A DNA stretch of 64,000 nucleotides from Panorpa germanica (Eukaryota > Arthropoda > Insecta > Mecoptera > Panorpidae). Positions within the stretch are counted from its first letter, which is position 1; every line of letters starts with the position of its first letter. Below the pieces are notes generated by a model. That model was not told the origin of the DNA and did not search any database. It worked only from the letters and a program-made list of their open reading frames with translations. This document shows, piece after piece, positions 2,847 to 64,000 of the stretch. Where the stretch lies: assembly GCA_963678705.1 (NCBI GenBank), contig OY783204.1, forward strand, positions 8,214,654 through 8,278,653. Reading direction: 5' to 3'. Both the position numbers and the translations under genes were made by a program.

Positions 2847-4555
2847 TGTAAAAAGTGCTGCAGATATCTTGTTTCCTATGCTTTAAATGACAGTTAAGAG
2901 TTATTGGTATAGTTATATAAAATAACATTACATTCTTTCGTGTGATCAACTCTTCCCGATTTATAGCGCGGGGAGTGCAAGCCGCGCATCCGTGTATTGT
3001 ATAATAGAGGGACCATGCAAGTTAATACTGCACTTTCTGATAGAAATGTGAAATTCGGTACAATGAAAGAGATAACTTTTAGATTTGGAGCCACTTAAAT
3101 TATATTTTATGGAAGATTCTACATGCTGGCCACCACGATTGTATAAATTGCAATATTTAAGGAACCGTTTTGATATTTAATTTACTGTTTTTTTTTAAAT
3201 TGTAATCTAGATTTCAGGTTCTCGTTTAAGCATTCATTCTCACATTTGTGTTTTAGTTTAAGTTTAGTTAATTTAGTTGGTGCGTATGCATCGTTAGTAT
3301 ATAAATTTTGACAGTTAGACATAACTGTATGTAAAATAATTAAAATTGCTATTTTTAATAACAATTAGTAATAGAAATTGTTTTCACTTCTATTTTTTTC
3401 AAAAACTGACATTAAACTTCTTTTAAAAGTAAGTCCTACTGCATTTTGACAGATGTCAAATTTTGGAGGTTATAATATAATATAGTTTTCCTTAATTTAA
3501 TATTTTAAATTTAAAACATTGAACCTTGTAAGGTTCTAAAAAAACTAAGAAAACTAAAAAATAAATTAAATTAAAAATGGTACTGTGAATGACTACGCGT
3601 ATTGCCATATGCTAAACAATTTAAATTAAATACAAAATTAAATTAAAGCAGTGAGTGAAGTTAAAACTTTTTTTTAATTTAAAAAAAAAATTGATTATAG
3701 GTTAATACGGTTTACAAGTTTAAAAAGCTCAATTACGGAATTTATTACGTAACTATGAACAAACCTTGCTTATTTTATTGTTTATTGTTAGGTTTATTGT
3801 TATTGATAGATACTTTATAAGTTCTTCAAAATATCTCAAATAGCTTATGCCTTACTGTTTGGGGAGTTTGGACCTTATAGAGATCTATAGGCTGGCTAGG
3901 GCGTATCTGCGATCTGTCGGCGGTATCCAAGTTTTCGAACGGCAAATGTCGCTCAGTTCCTTTCAATAGCTTAGGGTGCGCACAATTTGTTATGAAGGAC
4001 CTTTTTGTTATTAACTAATTAATAGCAATTTTTTATTTATATCAAAAGACACAGCAAAACATCAGAACTTTTTTAGATTACATTTATTTTAAAACTACAC
4101 TATTGAATTACATACATATAAATTGATTAAATATTTTAATTGATTAAAATACTAGTTACGACACTAAGTAAATGTAACTCGCGGTTTTAGTTATGTATAA
4201 TAATATGTGTAATTATTATTTTCTGTTTATGCAACAAAAGATTAAGCGTGCTGTTCGATTAAAAGCTGAGTTAATAAGACCGAAATACGTAGAACATATG
4301 CGTAGTGTCGTCTAGTGGCAATGGATCGTGAAACAAAGGATGTTTACATAAGCAAGATTAGGGCTTGCCCACATAGAGAAATATATATGTGTGTATATAA
4401 AAACAAATAGGCATAAAATATAAATGAATTAAAACAACGAAATCTTAAAACTAACATTAATTAAAAATAAAGGCAAGATATTGATATATAAATATGAATA
4501 TTGCATGCATTTATGAACACTTACCCTATACTTAAATATCATATTTAGAAATATA
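2847..4555. other. Intronic sequence with no gene recognised
   Basis: This is the rest of the EcKL intron between exons 3 and 4. It is AT-rich with a GC-richer patch at about 3840-3970. Short open frames here resemble nothing I know and have no supporting start or splice context. Confidence 0.6.
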
Positions 4556-4559
4556 TTAC

Positions 4560-4706
4560 CAATTTCTCAGCATAGATTTCATATCCTGCCCAATTAGAAA
4601 TGACTTTAGATATAGTCTCTAAGCATTTTTTGTAGTAGCGGTCAAACACAGAATATCTTTCATTTGAAAACGGGCTGCATAGGTAGAGGCCGTTAAAAGA
4701 CTCTTC
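4560..4706 (-). pseudogene. EcKL exon 3
   Basis: This is a 49-codon phase-0 exon between TTGTTGCAG and TTG|GTAATA. It reads EESFNGLYLCSPF and ends NWAGYEIYAEKL; the last block is the family motif W..FE.YAEKL that precedes the catalytic loop exon. Its first bases (TTGCAGGAAGAG across the acceptor) repeat the last bases of exon 2, probably by chance. Confidence 0.8.
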
Positions 4707-4986
4707 CTGCAACAAAAATAATCAATATTATACACCAAATTAATTTTTTTTAAATATTTAAGGCTTAATATATTTTTAATCTGTTTGTATAGGGTATTTA
4801 GGATTATCATAAGCTATTATCACTACATAAGCCTTGTGCCTTGTGCTACCAATGTTCAAAAAATAAAAAATCATCTTCCTTTATCATTGCAACTTAGTAA
4901 AAAATAATTCAACTTTATCAATATATGTAGTGCAGTTTTACAGAAATGAAGACTGGGTTCATAAGTTCGTTAAAATATAAAAGTAT

Positions 4987-5576
4987 AATGGGCTTGTGTC
5001 CTCATTTTTTAGTGGTCGATTTTTCAATTGTTGATTGAAATCGATGTAAATAAATGTGTATTGGTGTGTCTATTTTATTAAATATCTAAATATTGACGGA
5101 GATATAGCAATTAAAAGTTTGAATTGTAGTTTTAGCGGTAGAAATAGTCGGCCATATTTGTCAGTTATTTGTTGAGTAGGTCAGTGCTGTGGTAATGTTT
5201 TGTAGCTGTTGGTAGTCAAATAATCAAGTCAAGTTAAAGAATAATAAGTTTTTATTTTATTTAACCCTGCTAAGGCAGACTTAATATTGAAATTTTATTG
5301 TTCCTTGAAATAGCTGTAAATAATATTTGATATTTTGATAGACAAATACATATAGCACAGATTTATGAGCTGTAAGGTTGGTAACCTGACACAAGGATTG
5401 TGATGTCACATGCACTTGGAATGTGTACAACGTTGAATCCCTTTAATAATTAAAATGACTTTTTTAATTGATAATATCTCTTAACATATAAGAAGTTATT
5501 AAAAAATCATTGAACATTTGAGGTTCTAGTAACCCACTTTATCAATATATAGTACACTTTTGGACACAAGCCCATT
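4987..5576 (+). mobile_element. Short DNA transposon (MITE), copy B
   Basis: Same element as copy A, in opposite orientation, inside the intron between EcKL exons 2 and 3. The terminal inverted repeats are AATGGGCTTGTGTCC and GGACACAAGCCCATT, perfect over 15 bases in this copy. The two copies look roughly 90 percent alike by eye. Confidence 0.85.
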
Positions 5577-33599: not shown

Positions 33600-34830
33600 A
33601 AATCACATGGTCGTTGATGCTGTATTCCTATGAATGTTCTCAGCAGAATGTTACAGCTTTGGATGATCACTGATGCAGACTTTCTCTTTGTGTTTTTTGA
33701 AGAATCTTCACTTTACTCGATGGAAAATCAGGGTAAGGATCAGGTACAAGATCATTATTGAGCTTGTCAAGAGCCAACATATTTTCTGATGCGTTAGTTG
33801 ATAAAATCCATTTATTTCATCAGGCACAAATTCATGCATGCTACATTGTGTGTGATCTAAGGATACACTGCATGCTGTGGTGTTCTGTGGGTCATTGTTG
33901 GTAAAGAACTCCACCAGCTGGTCAACTCTGCCTGTTGGTGTTGATGTACAGCCTTGCCGGCTATTCTGGATAGCTCTTGGCAGCGTTGCGCTATCTTAAC
34001 TGCCTAATCGTTACGTTATACATGTTAATTCTTGAATTTGTAACAGTTCCAGCTAATGTTAACTGTTTCGCCTTTATAAGCCTCCTTTTATCTGAAATCT
34101 ACTTCGCAGATTTGGTTGGTATTAGCTTAGCTAATTCTGTGTTTATATTCTTAACGTTTGCCAGACGTTGAAGATTTGCCATCGGTGTTTGGACTTCCTC
34201 ATCAGACCATTTGAATAGTCTCTTAGTTTGCGGAGGGACAGGACAAGTTCCTGCTAGCCTATGCGTGTTACGCACCTCGGGATGGGCATGCTTAGCATGC
34301 TGACTTAGTCCTCGTTGAGTCTTGAAAGACATCACGCAGACTTCGCATTTAAATTGTTCCTCAGGCACCATTACAGGCCCCTTACAATGCGTTAGATGTT
34401 GGATCATCCCTTTGTACGTTTTGTACACTTTCCGACACCCGTTATTACAGATAAATTCTAAGGTGAACGTGGGGTGGTCCAACGAGAGGTGTCTGTTGGC
34501 CTCTGGTAATCCCACACATAACGTATTCGAGCTTCGTAACAGACATATTGGGCAGTACAAATTCTCGTATTTACCTGAGACGAATATTGCTCAGTTACTT
34601 CTGCTTTTCTGCTGTTCTTTGTGCTTTTTTCGCAATCTTTTATTTTTGAAGAGTTTGCGGAGCTTCCTCACACCTGACTTTGTAGCCCCGACCTGACCTT
34701 TGCTTCCATCCTCGGAGACCAATGTGCATATGTTGGCGTGTTTGGTGCTATATTTAACGATATTCACATTTTGGAGGACTTTAAGTAACCTCACTAAGGT
34801 TCTCTTTACTTAAAGGCAATGGCAGACTAA
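33600..34830 (-). mobile_element. R2-type LINE, N-terminal fragment
   Basis: The minus strand encodes three zinc-finger-like units: YCPICLL...H...H, then FICNNGCRKVYKTYKG...HLTHC, then FKCEVCVMSFKTQRGLSQHA. They are followed by a WSDEEV...LA block and an IPTKSAK/SDKRRL-like segment, the order seen in R2 proteins before the reverse transcriptase. Three fingers suggest the R2-A type (inference). A basic stretch lies upstream at 34794-34591. The part after about 34100 is broken up. The element is truncated and does not sit in 28S rDNA. Confidence 0.75.
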
Positions 34831-56144: not shown

Positions 56145-57745
56145 TCACCTTTCCGAAGAAGCTCCTCTCCGCGGTCTCGTCGTGGTCATCTGGGAGAATC
56201 TGGTGAAGTTCGTGTGGCTCCCCTGTAAAGCCCTGGTTATGAGGCTTCTTAGTGTGCCAGGGGGAATCCCAAAAGACAGCAGGTCATTGTACGATTTTAT
56301 TTACCATACACCTCTCCATGAAAGAGTACATGTAGTATAGTACACCGTTGCTGGGTCGATCTGAAATAGACAGCTCTGTATTAAAACCCGGTGTTTTGGG
56401 GTAGTATGCTGCCTTCTGACGATGCTTGCTATCAAGGCTGCCCGCGCTGCTAACAACTTGGACATCGATGACATTGCAGCAACCGTCTCTGACCGCAACG
56501 ATGGCTGGTTTCCGCATCCCCGCTTGAGATGGAATATGCGGTCCAGCTGCCACAGAGTACCCTTTTTTGACTAGTGCTGTGTTCAATCTACGAGCGATGG
56601 CGTCGTGTCTAAGCACTCTACCTTCATGCGTTTGGAAGCACTTCTGTACAGCATGTGCCCCAGTTTCCACATCTGAGTAGCCGGCTCTGCAGCGGACATT
56701 CCTGCCCGCTCTGCGCGACCTTCTTGATGTTCTAACTGCAGTTGGCAGACAGTTCACTTGCACGTGGACATGTTGTACGAAGTCACGTCCTGGTATATGG
56801 TGGGAATACCGGTTCATCCACTCAGTTGATACAGGCACCTTGGAAGATTCCACAAGTTCACTCCCATCCACTGAACTATGTAGTACATTGGCCCAAAACC
56901 GCTAACGGTCAGTAGCAAAGTTAGACGCTACACCGAGGTTGCGAAGGACCGCCGTACACCAGGAAACCTTTTGTTGCACCCTTAAAGTTCAGAATGCCGC
57001 GACGGCTACCTCGTTAGTAGACCCCGCTAGGCGGGCTAGCCTCGCTATCGTGATCCCTGGTATTGTAGTGACAAACGCAGCAATACCCAGGCCTCCGTCC
57101 TTTACTGCAGCGTAAAAGTACACGCCGGACACATCTTTAGGCAAGCGCAACCACTGCCTGATATGTTTGCGAACCGACTTATCCAGCTGCAGTAAACGGC
57201 CTTTTGTCACATTCCCTAGCACAAGCGCATGAAAAAATTGTGGTATCAGGTACGTCCTTAAGAGGACCAAACGTTGTTGGGGCTTTAGTGGAGCTTTCGA
57301 GATGCGAAGCAACGCTGTGGAAACATATGTTTCTACCGTCTTCGCTCCCTTCACACTAAAATTTACTGCCAAACACCTCCACTCTGCTAGGGATGTTACT
57401 GCTTTGATTCTCTGGGTATTTTAAACTCCGCATCGACGATCTTGATCTTCTTAGCCTTCCCTGCTGGCATTAGGGAATTGGCCGAAGATTTTTCCACATT
57501 AAACGCCAGGTTCATACTGGCAGCCTTCTTTACGATGTCTCGAAGGGCAATCTTCATCCCTGCTGCTGTGGAAGTCACAACAACAAGGTCGTCAGCGAAT
57601 GCTAAGCATGACACCTTTTGTCCTCCTAGCATAAACCCAACCTCCTGTGGAATAGCGGCTATCACTGCGTCCATTGCCAAATTAAAAATGATGGGTGACA
57701 ACGGATCGCCTTGTCTAACACCTCTGTTAACAGCATACACTTCAC
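56145..57745 (-). mobile_element. R2-type LINE, reverse transcriptase and endonuclease half
   Basis: Minus strand: reverse transcriptase NRGVRQGDPLSPIIFNLAMD and LAFADDLVVVTSTAAGMKI; then LLRISKAPLKPQQRLVLLRT and FYAAVKDGGLGI, typical of R2 after the palm; then a zinc motif in which CRAGYSDVETGAHAVQKC has lost its second Cys; then the restriction-like endonuclease KPAIVAVRDGCCNVIDVQVV; then the tail LSWRGVW, FGIPPGTLRSLITRALQGSH and TNFTRFSQMT. It is 5'-truncated just upstream of the RGVRQGDPLSP box and has several frame changes. The flanks are not 28S rDNA. It is not the missing half of the 34-kb fragment: on the minus strand the order would be wrong. Confidence 0.88.
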
Positions 57746-57806: not shown

Positions 57807-57929
57807 TTAAAAAAACTTACATATTTTATAGTGTGAATATACTATTTTTATTACCCCAGTATAAAAAACGTGCTACAAGAAGGAGCATATTATTTTATGA
57901 TTTAAATTGTGTCTTAGGTAAAACTTAGC

Positions 57930-58180
57930 ATTTTAAGACTTTTATTATACTTGTAAAAAATTCAAGTTTCATATAAAATTTGTGAAATAATTTACAAAAA
58001 GGTTTTTAATAATTGTACATTCGAACTTCTTGTTATGAAATTGTTCCCCGATTTATGAAATTTATTTTATGAAATTTATCAAAAGTTTGAGTATTATATA
58101 TAAAACCAAGCAATCTAAGACTTTTATTATATTTGTAAAAAAAAATTGTTTTCATATAATTTATTTGAATTATCGCTTAA
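57930..58180. repeat. Imperfect tandem duplication of about 183 bp
   Basis: AAGACTTTTATTATACTTGT near 57934 recurs as AAGACTTTTATTATATTTGT near 58117, each followed by an A run and TTTCATATAA. The motif TTATGAAATT recurs at least five times between 58035 and 58255. It is non-coding. Confidence 0.6.
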
Positions 58181-58947
58181 AATCTATTTGGATTTTATTT
58201 ACTTATTTTTCATGTTATGAAATTCTTAATATATCCTTCTCACGTTATGAAATTTTAAAAACTTAACATGCGACATTATTATTCTGTTTTATTGAAGTTT
58301 TAATCATCTGTATTATCTCACTTTATGAAGAATTGTTTTTGTAAAAGGACACTTTTTGGTATTAAAATGCCTTTGTGTAGAGAGATGTATGTAAATGTTA
58401 TAAATTAATATATGAAGTTTAATTTATTTGTACAGCGGTATACCCCGATTTATGTAACTTGCTTAGGCGACCATTTTTTTTCGGGTCATAGTCCATATTA
58501 ATGGCTCTTTCCAATCGTTATTTTAGTCATTTTTCATAATGTGAATGATAAGCTAAAAGTTGCGAAAGGCACTAAAAAAATTTTTAAATCGTAACTTTCC
58601 CCCTTTTTTTATTGTTAGTCCATTTTAAAACTTTTTCGCATTTTCAGTCTTTTTGCGCCCTACTTTTTGCACGGTACTAAAATAATACTGTTCTGTATTA
58701 ACACTTGTGGCTGTTTAACGCAAAAAAAATTAATTATTTTTTGAGAATAAACCATTTCCGATACAAATTAATGTATCAGAGCAGCGGTTTAAGATTTATT
58801 TAAAAGTATGTCACTCCGAAAAGACAACTGGACCGTACTTTTAGTTATATTACCCCGACAGTGTCATATATACTATACAAATTATAAATTTTCCACGTAC
58901 GTTTCGGGTGTTATGGTATGGTTACAATAAAAAACAGATATTTTTTT

Positions 58948-59014
58948 ATAATATTTTTTTGCGCGCAAATCCAGACACACACAGATCCTTTATTACAACA
59001 AAAAAAATATTATT
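58948..59014. other. Stem-loop H1 with shared loop motif
   Basis: Arms ATAATATTTTTTTG (58948-58961) and its complement with one extra A (58999-59013). The loop holds GACACACACAGATCC (58974-58988). Confidence 0.7.
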
Positions 59015-59076
59015 ATATCCGGTAGATTCAAACAATCTCAAATACACACACTTTTTAAAAGTATTTTTATATATAT

Positions 59077-59950
59077 TGTTACGGATTTGCGGGCGTCTGA
59101 GCAGACAAAAGGTATAGTTATAAAATAATCACTGGAATTAGCAGAAAAGGTTGCGTATCCCTGTACAAATATCAAGACATTTTAATTACGAAGCTGTTTA
59201 CTCGTTGGCGCATAACTGATACGCGTGTTCTTGGACATAACATAAAGAACTGCATACCATGCACTTCTGTTATTGTTTACATGTGATCTTTCTAGAATCA
59301 AATACTACGCGTATGGAGTAGAACGTCATAGAAATAGTCGGAAGGTCAAACAGCGTATCTGAACAATTATAGGAATATTCTGGAAAGTCAGAAGTGTCGA
59401 GACTAGGGGAATTGTACTGCGTAAACCGCTAATATAAAAGGAGCAAAACATCGCGTCGCGAGGCAGTCTGCAAACAAGAGTCAGTCCGCGAGAATAAGTC
59501 AGTCAGAATAATTAAGTGAAATAATAAAGAGTAATTGTAAATAGTTGTTAATTGTTGTAATTGTTTTGTGTGAATAAATAAAGTCTGTAAAAGTGTAAAT
59601 CCTTCTTATTATTTTAATTGTGGCTATTCATTAATTATTAAGTTACAACGCGACTAAATAGTGTAAACAATTGCATCCGCTCGGCAATCAACTAAAAGAA
59701 CCCAGTCGCAGGCGTAATACGGCGTATATTTAGAAGGTTCGAGAATCCTAGTCTCCCTTCCCTTAATCCTCGCTCGCATATACAAATTTGTACCTTTGGC
59801 GTCCTAGAAAGTTACAGAGCCAGACTCCCTTCATTCCCCCTTTACGCCCTTACAAGTTTGTAACATTTGGTGTTAGAAGCTGAAGAGGATAGTTGCTACG
59901 AGCACACGTCTCGTCGTCTCCCCGCCGTCGCCATTGTGAAAATTGTAACA
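59077..59950 (+). repeat. 5' LTR of element 3
   Basis: TATA box TATAAAAG at about 59433-59440, a TCAGTC initiator-like motif near 59480, and an AATAAATAAAG polyadenylation region near 59572. About 85 bp before its end it already contains GTAACATTTGGTGTTAGAAG, a near copy of the LTR end plus primer-binding site. Confidence 0.92.
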
Positions 59951-60213
59951 TTTGGTGTCAGAAGTGGGATAGCCTCAGTAACGACCGCTGCAGAGAGAAT
60001 TTCAGGAAGAAAAACAGGAGAGTCTGAAACTACGTTTCCAAAGAGACTTCCAGAAACTTCTAGTCGGGATTTGCAGCAAGAAGGATTTTCCGAAGAGCAA
60101 GGTTCGAGAAAAACAGAAATACTGACGTCGAAGAAACTCCATAAAGTTCCAAAACCTTTCAGAAAATTCTAGAGAAACTTTTAAAACAATTTACAACACA
60201 ACACGCAACAAAT

Positions 60214-61038
60214 ATGGAGAAATTATTAAAAGAACTTAAGGAAATTATGCTAGTGCAAGTTGCAAAGTCCGAAAAACAAAATGCTGATTTAAGAGAGATG
60301 AAAGAAGAGATGTTCGAGAAAATTCAAGAACAGGCCGAAAAGTCTAAAGAAGAGAATGTTGAATTAAGTAGAGGAATGCAAATAATACAAGAACAAATAG
60401 AAAAGTCTAAAGAAGAAATATTCGAGAAGTTTCAAGAACAGACAGAAGTATTACAAAAGCAGAATGAAGCATTCCAAGCGCAAATGCAAGCTGTAGAAAA
60501 AGCTTGCGGAGGATCTAAAATGGAACTAGAAACGCGTAAAGATAAAATAGAAGAAAATGTGGCACAAGGTCTCCAATTAGTGACAATACGACAAGAGTTG
60601 GTGGAGACAAAAATTGAAGAAATAGAAAAACGCGTTGAAATCGTCCAAAAGAACAGTAAGCAAGCTACAGAAGAAAGATCAGCGGACCTAGTGACTGACA
60701 TCGAACGAGTAGTAAACCGTGCTGCAGGTAAAGCCCCCAGATATTTCACGAACGCAGTACGAGAGCGCAGAATAAAAGGGGCCATATTATTTATCAAGCT
60801 TAAGAACATTAATGAAGCCATAATACAAGTTCCTGAAGTGAACTATGCATGGAGCGCCTTCAATGCATTCTACCCCCTACAAGCTACTCCGGCCATGGAC
60901 AAACAACAGAATATGGATCAAGGAAATGAAAACATAAGCCGTGGTAATTTAAGAAAAAGAAGAAGAGGACCTCAATGGCCTTACGACAGGGGCAGAAAAT
61001 CTACTGCGAATGGCGCAACTTCCCTCAACACTAACTAA
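60214..61038 (+). CDS. Element 3 gag-like coiled-coil protein
   Basis: 274 residues. Residues 1-170 are a highly charged coiled coil with recurring EQAEKSKEENVEL and EQIEKSKEEIFEKFQEQTE units. A short region around FTNAVRERRIKG follows, then a basic end NLRKRRRGPQWPYDRG. There is no capsid core or zinc knuckle. It looks like the front of a gag joined to a short unrelated tail. It is the only sizeable frame in the element. Confidence 0.7.
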   Translation: MEKLLKELKEIMLVQVAKSEKQNADLREMKEEMFEKIQEQAEKSKEENVELSRGMQIIQEQIEKSKEEIFEKFQEQTEVLQKQNEAFQAQMQAVEKACGGSKMELETRKDKIEENVAQGLQLVTIRQELVETKIEEIEKRVEIVQKNSKQATEERSADLVTDIERVVNRAAGKAPRYFTNAVRERRIKGAILFIKLKNINEAIIQVPEVNYAWSAFNAFYPLQATPAMDKQQNMDQGNENISRGNLRKRRRGPQWPYDRGRKSTANGATSLNTN

Positions 61039-61052
61039 CAATAGAAGGGAAT

Positions 61053-61237
61053 GGGTCCAAACAGGTAAAGACCTAAAAAGCTCCCTCGTGGGTCCAAACA
61101 GGTGAAGACCTAAAAAGCTCCCTCGTGGGTCCAAGCAGGTGAAGACCGAAAAAGCTCCCTCGTGGGTCCAAATAGGTGAAGACCTAAAAAGCTCCCTAGC
61201 AGGTCCAAGCAAGTGAAGACCGAAAAAGCTTCCTAGT
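61053..61237 (+). repeat. 37-bp tandem repeat, five units
   Basis: Each unit runs GGGTCCAAACAGGTGAAGAC then CTAAAAAGCTCCCTCGT with small changes; unit starts at 61053, 61090, 61127, 61164 and 61201. It lies right after the gag-like stop. No direct role is visible. Confidence 0.95.
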
Positions 61238-61379
61238 ACGATTTAATGAGGTGAACATTTCCCGACACATGCAACCCTACAGAAGATACGGCAGAAGTTG
61301 TACATTAGTGAAACGATGATGTCACATACACTGTGAGGACACCTTCCGAAGAGTACTGCGAAACCATGGCGCAAGAACT

Positions 61380-61740
61380 AGAAGAAGTCCACCCGTTTTC
61401 GTAAGAACGCCGTGAGCGATGGATCGCTACATAAAGCGTTACGATCGTGGCAAACTAAGTCAGCGCTTTTGCAAAGGTGATACGGTATGGCTTAATTATC
61501 GTAAGAAAAATAGAAGACGAAGCACTAAGCTGTAAACCGGAAAGGAAGGATCGCATTTGAAATTAGCCGTAAGTTGGGACGTGATCTACAACGTGCAGAG
61601 GTCAGCCCGAGGGAAGATGCATTAACGTTCACCGAGACTGGTGCGATAATGAAGGAAGATGAAAAATGCTCCGGATTCATAACCAGCTGATTTAGCCGCC
61701 CGATGAAAATTATAAGCACTCGAGACGAGCGCTTTTTAGG
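61380..61740 (+). pseudogene. Element 3 integrase-end remnant
   Basis: A plus-strand frame reads RYIKRYDRGKLSQRFCKGDT then VWLNYRKKNRRRS, matching the C-terminal SH3-like part of Gypsy integrases (YD.......GD.VWL). It is only a remnant. It abuts the polypurine tract before the 3' LTR, which is its normal place. Confidence 0.65.
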
Positions 61741-61750
61741 AGGGGGAAAG

Positions 61751-62624
61751 TGTTACGGATTTGCGGGCGTCTGAGCAGACAAAAATTGTAGTTATAATAT
61801 AATCACTGGAATTAGCAGAAAAGGTTGCGTATCCCTGTACAAATATCAAGACATTTTAATTACGAAGCTGTTTACTCGTTGGCGCATAACTGATACGCGT
61901 GTTCTTGGACATAACATAAACAACTGCATACCATGCACTTCTGTTATTGTTTACATGTGATCTTTCTAGAATCAAATACTACGCGTATGGAGTAGAACGT
62001 CATAGAAATAGTCGGAAGGTCAAACAGCGTATCTGAATAATTATAGGAATATTCTGGAAAGTCAGAAGTGTCGAGACTAGGGGAATTGTACTGCGTAAAC
62101 CGCTAATATAAAAGGAGCAAAGCATCGTGTCGCGAGGCAGTCTGCAAACAAGAGTCAGTCCGCGAGAATAAGTCAGTCAGAATAATTAAGTGAAATAATA
62201 AAGAGTAATTGTAAATAGTTGTTAATTGTTCTAATTGTTTTGTTTGAATAAATAAAGTTTGTAAAAGTGTAAATCTTTCTTATTATTTTAATTGTGGCTA
62301 TTCATTAATTATTAAGTTACAACGCGACTAAATAGTGTAAACAATTGCATCCGCTCGGCAATCAACTAAAAGAACCCAGTCGCAGGCGTAATACGGCGTA
62401 TATTTAGAAGGTTCGAGAATCCTAGTCTCCCTTCCCTTAATCCTCGCTCGCATATACAAATTTGTACCTTTGGCGTCCTAGAAAGTTCCAGAGCCAGACT
62501 CCCTTCATTCCCCCTTTACGCCCTTACAAGTTTGTAACATTTGGTGTTAGAAGCTGAAGAGGATAGTTGCTACGAGCACACGTCTCGTCGTCTCCCCGCC
62601 GTCGCCACCGTGAAAATTGTAACA
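61751..62624 (+). repeat. 3' LTR of element 3
   Basis: Same layout as the 5' LTR, including the internal copy of the LTR end plus primer-binding-like motif near 62534. It is followed by ATATAT. Confidence 0.92.
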
Positions 62625-62630
62625 ATATAT

Positions 62631-63120
62631 TCACTCTTGCTCGGAAACAAGTGAGGTGATGCAAGTTTTTTTTTGGTTTATAGGGCGCCACATAGGAGCG
62701 TTTAGTCTTAGAGACGTAAGCCCGTGGCAATGCTGTTCGGTATGGTGGGGTTTATCTATTTATGTTCCACATGTTAATTATTTTTCATTATAAGCTATTT
62801 ATTTCACACGAGCGTAATATAAATCAGACCACAAATAATTACTAAATAATATAGGGAAATCCCGTTGCCTTGATAGAAAAGTAAATACAGGTTCTCTTTG
62901 AATAGTTAACAAAGCCACGTATATTAGGACAGTGAATAACTCGTTTCTGTACTTGTTCCGTAACTTAAACGTACTTTTCCAGTGCCGGTGGGACAAAATC
63001 TCTACACCGAATTCCTTCTCCGAGATCAACCATATTTTCGTAGTATACTTTTACCAAGGACTTTTATTTTTTGTTGTAATGTGCGGGCTATAGAGAAGGG
63101 TACTACTACTCTTTAGTTTG
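62631..63120. other. Sequence with no gene recognised
   Basis: Moderate GC patch at about 62690-62760. I see no coding frame or RNA gene. Confidence 0.45.
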
Positions 63121-63131
63121 TGGTTAAGGTA

Positions 63132-63173
63132 ACACAACACAGTGGCTAAATTTAAAGACACTGTGTGTTGTGT
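63132..63173. other. Strong stem-loop (CA-rich stem)
   Basis: ACACAACACAGTG (63132-63144) pairs with CACTGTGTGTTGTGT (63159-63173), with a 2-base bulge and a 14-base loop. Confidence 0.65.
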
Positions 63174-63518
63174 CTCCACACACAACAACCATTAAGAACA
63201 ACACGATGGTATTTTGTTATTCTGTCAGAAAATATATTGTTTGCGATCACATCATCATACACACAAACATTAATAATATATTTTCCCCGAAACGAGCAAT
63301 ATCATTCATAAATTTAAATCATCACAACACTTTGTAACCACTTTGAAACATAGATATATATTCGTATTTCCACCATTTCAATTGTACCATCCTTATACTT
63401 GAAAAAAAATAAAATATATATAATATTTATTTTTTAGTGGAGTGAAGATTATTATTGCTCGTCTCTGAAGCAGTTTATTATACAGTCTTACTCCAGGACT
63501 GTTTTAATATTTGTGTGT

Positions 63519-63568
63519 GTATTTTATATTCTATCTCGGACACACACAGATCCCAAAACATAAAATAC
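63519..63568. other. Stem-loop H2 with shared loop motif
   Basis: Perfect 9-bp stem GTATTTTAT / ATAAAATAC. The loop contains CTCGGACACACACAGATCCC; the shared 15-mer lies at 63539-63553. Confidence 0.75.
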
Positions 63569-63660
63569 ATTGAGTTATATATACAATTCATCCGTCTATT
63601 ACTACTACTTGGTTCGTCACTCCAAGAAAATAGACATCATTCATGTATTATTATTATTAT

Positions 63661-63681
63661 TATAGAAAATATTTTTCTATA
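63661..63681. other. Perfect 9-bp stem-loop
   Basis: TATAGAAAA pairs with TTTTCTATA around a 3-base loop, directly after an (ATT)n run. Confidence 0.6.
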
Positions 63682-63685
63682 TTTT

Positions 63686-63740
63686 TTATTTTATATATTG
63701 TTGTATCTCGGACACACACAGATCCCACAACATAAAATAA
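63686..63740. other. Stem-loop H3 with shared loop motif
   Basis: TTATTTTAT/ATAAAATAA (9 bp) and GTTGT/ACAAC (5 bp) separated by a one-sided bulge. The 22-base loop holds the shared 15-mer at 63711-63725. Confidence 0.78.
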
Positions 63741-63814
63741 TTTTTAATTTCATTCATTTATAAATTTTTTTTTCATAAATCCACCTAATGGTGATTTAGT
63801 AAGGGGTAGTAGTC

Positions 63815-63846
63815 CTTATAGATAAACTGTGATTATTATCTATAAG
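63815..63846. other. Perfect 11-bp stem-loop
   Basis: CTTATAGATAA (63815-63825) pairs with TTATCTATAAG (63836-63846) around a 10-base loop. Confidence 0.75.
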
Positions 63847-63852
63847 TTTACA

Positions 63853-63919
63853 CACAATTAAGGTTTTTGTACCAGACACACACAGATCCGTTAGTTACAC
63901 AAAAACCGAACTAATTGTG
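63853..63919. other. Stem-loop H4 with shared loop motif
   Basis: Outer stem CACAATTA/TAATTGTG (8 bp) and inner stem GGTTTTTGT/ACAAAAACC (9 bp). The 28-base loop holds the shared 15-mer at 63875-63889. Confidence 0.8.
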
Positions 63920-63983: not shown

Positions 63984-64000
63984 GGTAGAGAGAAGACGGT

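Follow-up and report, generated by a model that had tools for sequence, protein, structure and literature searches.

What role could a 15-nucleotide sequence play that returns unchanged between arms that differ from copy to copy? The question is raised by a stretch of 64,000 nucleotides from Panorpa germanica (contig OY783204.1, here C1, positions 8,214,654 to 8,278,653), referred to here as the window. Within it, GACACACACAGATCC occurs at 58974, 63539, 63711 and 63875, always on the + strand and exactly where a preliminary description of this DNA had placed it. These 4 sites are also the sole matches in the window when up to 2 mismatches are allowed, for a chance expectation of 0.02. The 464-Mb genome of 249 contigs holds 179 exact copies of the 15-mer, and 0 copies of the reversed sequence used as a control. 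The features of the window that matter here are the following:

58935..59022 (loop 58974-58988), - strand (rRNA sense): hairpin of type f; homologue in cluster L018 at 2196 nt past the LSU 3' end
63518..63569 (loop 63539-63553), - strand (rRNA sense): hairpin of type g; L018 homologue at 1130 nt past the LSU 3' end
63686..63740 (loop 63711-63725), - strand (rRNA sense): hairpin of type h; L018 homologue at 949 nt past the LSU 3' end
63853..63919 (loop 63875-63889), - strand (rRNA sense): hairpin of type i, the strongest stem; homologues at 787 (L018) and 792 (L017) nt past the LSU 3' end
62628..63500, - strand: spacer core of about 870 bp, between g and the f (or e to a) side; aligns wholly or partly in 15 of 19 other clusters
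57892..59073, - strand: AT-rich spacer, partly internally repeated, common to other rDNA clusters
59077..62626, + strand: LTR element with two direct copies, in the spacer between f and the core and outside the hairpin system

That the arms change from site to site and yet pair around each loop, as had been described, was seen both in the sequence of all 4 window copies and in their folds. The stem at 58974 is A/T-rich (CAGATA..ATATCCGG), and in the C139 unit hairpin f is adjoined by tandem repeats of 178 bp and 348 bp. The arms are TGTATTTTAT and ATAAAATACA at 63539, TTATTTTAT plus GTTGT and ACAAC plus ATAAAATAA at 63711, and CACAATTA plus GGTTTTTGT and ACAAAAACC plus TAATTGTG at 63875. When the fold at 63539 is left unconstrained, the loop itself pairs with upstream GTGTGTGT, in its own arm. 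The spacer core contains a long hairpin of its own, ACACAACACAGTG..CACTGTGTGTTGTGT at 63132-63173, without the common loop.

Placement in the rRNA gene spacers

Three pattern searches split by the next letters (47 + 76 + 55) listed 178 of the 179 genomic copies, and these are confined to 8 of the 249 contigs: C1, C2, C5, C7, C8, C77, C139 and C241. Seven of these contigs, with 165 of the 178 listed copies, carry a 5.8S match; the remaining 13 copies lie on C241, for which no 5.8S was among the matches scored. Around the copies, 20 clusters were fetched, whose rRNA units are N in places, which leaves the unit maps partial. On C139, the N blocks have both ends at multiples of 2500 and are therefore probably masked rRNA sequence and not assembly gaps. 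Rfam matches to SSU, LSU or 5.8S lie beside the hairpins in 14 of the 20 clusters, on the strand opposite to the motif in 14 of 14. The other 6 clusters (L011, L012, L016, L019, L023 and L024) have spacer sequence in common with these 14, and 3 of the 6 contain N. The copies thus sit in the spacers of nuclear rDNA, on the strand opposite to the rRNA genes, and a pre-rRNA would therefore read GGAUCUGUGUGUGUC. This setting is the point that the preliminary description missed. Its suggestion that the loops are the signature of an unknown, interrupted element is not supported: the hairpins are parts of rDNA spacers, and what interrupts them is an LTR element that inserted there. A new mobile element was rejected likewise, because the listed copies follow the rDNA and are not scattered outside it.

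The most complete view comes from L013, where the SSU has a full-length Rfam match (3090-5016, minus strand). Six loops lie upstream of its 5' end, at 82, 162, 234, 293, 377 and 439 nt, and two lie beyond its 3' end, at 698 and 780 nt. The 5.8S of this unit (C1:8293074-8293228) is 4.4 kb on from the SSU, which makes the ITS1 there about 4.4 kb long and places these two copies within it, where they would be transcribed in an active unit. The ITS1 of the German cockroach is 661 bp in the available part of one report (PMC7650587). Copies past the SSU 3' end were found in L009, L010 and L013. All four window types recur past the LSU 3' end in L018 (at 787, 949, 1130 and 2196 nt), and types i and g do so in L017 (at 792 and 1123 nt), where one mismatch is present in the loop of g. 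From this layout, the right end of the window corresponds to the 28S-18S spacer, read from right to left, and the 28S should start only after base 64000, in sequence given as N in the genome record. Hairpins f, g, h and i may be outside the transcript. Overall, the hairpins share one orientation and recur at repeatable places in the spacers: ahead of the 18S, within ITS1 and beyond the 3' end of the 28S.

At the family gathering score, Rfam 15 gave no match in the window, and all matches in the loci that were scanned belong to rRNA families; among them is a broad, gapped LSU match in L014 that spans the e to a hairpins. The 15-mer did not occur in the literature searched, which leaves most subscription papers outside, and matches to its 13-mers on either strand were confined to 3 papers on zebrafish or Prader-Willi work. 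Nor did keyword searches of that literature on spacer hairpins and nucleolin elements turn up such a loop family, and the 18-mer loop had 0 matches in viral contigs.

The direct copies of the LTR element, whose right end was placed by eye, are 98% alike over 300 nt with a spacing of 2674. Its interior is short, and the ORF at 60145-61038 gave no Pfam match above the cut-off. L017 aligns unbroken with the right half of the element and the spacer beyond, which probably reflects a duplication of the spacer after the LTR insertion.

Pairing of unlike arms

The copies were sorted by their flanks into types a to j plus two sub-types. When cognate arms were compared with swapped arms across these 12 types, only 1 in 100,000 permutations paired as well, in a set of 12 representatives that includes two related pairs. 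Within the fetched stretches, 85 exact copies have full flanks and correspond to 66 distinct contexts. Copies lying mostly outside inverted repeats, the outcome that the preliminary description had named as speaking against its reading, were looked for and not seen: the flanks pair at -8 kcal/mol or better in 51 of the 66 contexts, compared with 30.8% of 6878 background positions from the same spacers (Mann-Whitney p 8e-17, for contexts that are not independent). Most copies are thus held in hairpins, with weak stems in 15 of the 66 contexts. At 13 chosen sites in three loci, the median rank was 9% of spacer positions (KS p 6e-7), and in this ranking the stem of type c is no better than background.

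Could such pairing arise without selection? Under a neutral scenario, duplicates of a single ancestral hairpin within the spacers would have spread through gene conversion and unequal crossing over; the loop would simply have been copied along, and AT-richness would account for the pairing of the arms. The spacers are indeed AT-rich and repeat-rich, types a and b are near-identical upstream of 18S and in ITS1, and short tandem copies of type i are found on C8 (L026 6978, 7041 and 7104). Compensatory change within types, which the preliminary description had proposed as a check, is also weak overall. When own arms were set against crossed arms, it was evident in type a (22 to 5 for own arms), type f (11 to 1) and type g (5 to 1), but not in types b (70 to 55), c (2 to 3), e (16 to 16), h (15 to 15) and i (0 to 4); the count for type d is 1 to 0. 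However, types f, g, i and j combine an identical loop with mutually unlike arms, and the arm-swap result also speaks against this scenario. We regard neutral spread as rather unlikely, also in view of the substitution and strand data below.

Substitution in loop and arms

Rates of change were compared in 121 realigned copies whose arms are at least 75% alike, reduced to 118 after 3 rows that are non-homologous at the loop were dropped. In these 118 copies, changes affect 41 of 1770 loop positions and 273 of 4484 arm positions, a 2.6-fold difference, and the 35 copies with arms 75-90% alike show 13 changes in 525 loop positions against 178 in 1330 arm positions. With the dropped rows put back, the counts become 70/1815 for the loop and 299/4598 for the arms overall, and 42/570 and 204/1444 in the 75-90% class. 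The gap is small among copies 90-100% alike (24/825 against 95/2090, p 0.05), and the p values of these rates are too good because the copies are related. Two other rate counts gave a loop rate equal to or above the arm rate, which we put down to N-masking and non-homologous rows.

The excess of change in the arms is not the same throughout the genome. Outside C8, the ratio of loop to arm rate is 0.23, or about 4-fold less change in the loop, whereas it is 0.62 in four C8 loci. This contrast may be affected by the choice of reference copies for the rates, all from outside C8, and C8 copies are more diverged overall. Loop changes are carried by 21 of 34 C8 copies and by 12 of 85 copies elsewhere. 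The C8 rDNA is, to judge from its sequence, degenerate, with eight 5.8S matches at 70.9-100.7 bits compared with 119 bits for the best copies. Along C8:0.02-2.8 Mb, a long stretch of scattered, decayed rDNA units with more loop changes is apparently a dying rDNA region. A loop that changes less than the arms at the same sites, and least so in degenerate rDNA, is at odds with neutral spread. The state of the loop may also tell live from dead rDNA units within one genome.

Loop changes occur in both halves of the loop, which bears on another possibility, that of contacts between loops. The self-complementary GGAUCU would allow kissing contacts between hairpins, by which the spacer is compacted without any further partner; the 18-nt loop gives a 6-bp self-duplex of -6.4 kcal/mol, read as GGAUCU/GGAUCU, and each unit offers many copies. 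Such contacts leave the conservation of the UGUGUGUC half unexplained, and changes spread over both halves fit them poorly, so that we give this possibility very little weight.

Strand preference and proposed role

If the hairpins act as RNA, their stems should be considered in both senses. For 10 of 11 types, whether an arm length of 25 or 35 is used, pairing is stronger in the rRNA-sense stem than in its antisense counterpart; the exception, type c, is stronger in antisense. Spacer background shows no such preference, the sense being favoured at length 25 in 54% of all 4091 positions and in 48% of the 1141 positions with a stem (p 0.006 for the hairpin types against background). G-U pairs are often behind the stronger sense stem, and since such pairs aid only one of the two possible RNAs, the bias favours selection on the pre-rRNA. 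It is not expected under neutral spread. Together with the arm swap, the rank against background and the conservation of the loop, it upholds the earlier view that a kept loop on changing stems reflects selection for structure.

The strand bias also counts against a DNA-level element, in which the site, comparable to the mouse Sal box, would be bound as duplex by a Pol I factor and act as a terminator, an enhancer or a fork barrier. The hairpins would then be incidental or extruded as cruciforms. Pol I terminator boxes (mouse Sal box/TTF-I, yeast Reb1) are short conserved motifs repeated past 28S and upstream of 18S, and the sites studied here, of fixed orientation and with a conserved 15-mer, share both positions. 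Unlike these boxes, they also occur within ITS1 and are embedded in paired arms. Indeed, L013 copies lie between SSU and 5.8S, inside the segment that must be transcribed and where a terminator would cut the transcript; other copies are found between LSU and SSU. Moreover, duplex binding offers no role for unlike arms that pair with their cognates. An element of this kind is improbable.

We consider it probable, if well short of certain, that the copies are RNA hairpins of the pre-rRNA spacers whose loop is recognised by one trans-acting factor, a judgement that rests on the arm swap, the strand bias and the placement. Roughly twelve hairpins of different build that show one 15-letter loop look like a putative repeated docking signal for a ribosome-making factor. 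Upon transcription of the unit by Pol I, the UG-rich loop GGAUCUGUGUGUGUC would stay unpaired in each hairpin. A single factor, most likely an RNA-binding protein and less likely a snoRNA, could bind these loops on either side of the 18S segment and assist in folding or cleaving the small-subunit precursor or in keeping it together. UG-rich RNA is bound by animal RRM proteins such as TDP-43 and CELF. A stem that serves to present the loop is free to drift in sequence as long as it stays paired. It is quite possible, if somewhat less likely than not, that this represents a lineage-specific recognition code of pre-rRNA, in which a dedicated factor reads the 15-nt UG-rich loop on at least 10 unlike hairpins flanking 18S while insect spacers, usually regarded as free to drift, preserve the repeated site by re-evolving stems around it. 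Functional parts are difficult to recognise in the rapidly evolving transcribed spacers of rRNA genes; a stable loop on changing stems marks likely functional sites and provides a bait for the partner.

Several nucleolin recognition elements (NREs) are present in the vertebrate 5' ETS. Like the hairpins described here, the NRE is a stem-loop recognised through a short motif in its loop, with pre-rRNA among the targets, as stated in the available part of the source (PMC12293987). There, the loop motif is given as (U/G)CCCG(A/G), whereas the loop found here reads GGAUCUGUGUGUGUC followed by UGG or CGAG, with no CCCG. As in NREs, the motif lies in a hairpin loop, type c excepted. The NRE is the nearest working analogue, but its loop differs and the hairpins are not filed as NREs; by analogy, the best reading is that they may act like nucleolin recognition elements without belonging to them. 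Other insect spacers offer partial likenesses, within the available parts of the two reports concerned. In the Anopheles barbirostris group, the ITS2 is enlarged by hairpin-folding repeats of about 110 bp that are thought to have one ancestor (PMC3994965), whereas here unlike arms carry one loop, at sites upstream of 18S, in ITS1 and past 28S. The Bag530 repeats of a stick-insect IGS-ETS are likewise repeated elements of an insect rDNA spacer for which a role was proposed (PMC2590618).

Among candidate RNA partners, U3 snoRNA was rejected, its 5' part having no special complementarity to the loop (31% of shuffled loops pair as well), as was RNase MRP RNA, which has at most 6 letters in common with the loop complement. 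A search for U17/SNORA73 gave no match in this genome, nor in the controls, and a box C/D-like pattern (loop complement plus CTGA) gave 0 matches. Just beyond hairpin e upstream of 18S, nine letters are identical to the U3 hinge (L013 5505, L014 2865 and L010 5188, in motif-on-+ coordinates). This match is a candidate U3 pairing site and suggestive only, as 52 of 1000 shuffles are as good and these loci contain further matches of 9-10 letters at other positions. The genome has 19 U3 snoRNA matches of 143-150 bits, scattered over contigs C1-C4, C10, C12, C15, C16 and C18.

Some further observations concern the window and the genome at large. Window ORFs 34099-34590 and 56284-56901 look like zinc-finger and endonuclease ends, presumably those of an R2-type retrotransposon; Pfam gave zinc-finger-type matches for the former and none for the latter. 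The ORF at 1585-2052 encodes an EcKL (ecdysteroid kinase-like) domain (E 5e-27), which fits an arthropod. Contig C249 is mitochondrial, and the mitochondrial piece has the order I-Q-M-ND2-W-C-Y-COX1-L-COX2-K-D, which we take to be the ancestral insect order. COX1 is matched at 19 further places, many of them interrupted by stops, which resemble mitochondrial DNA copied into the nucleus.
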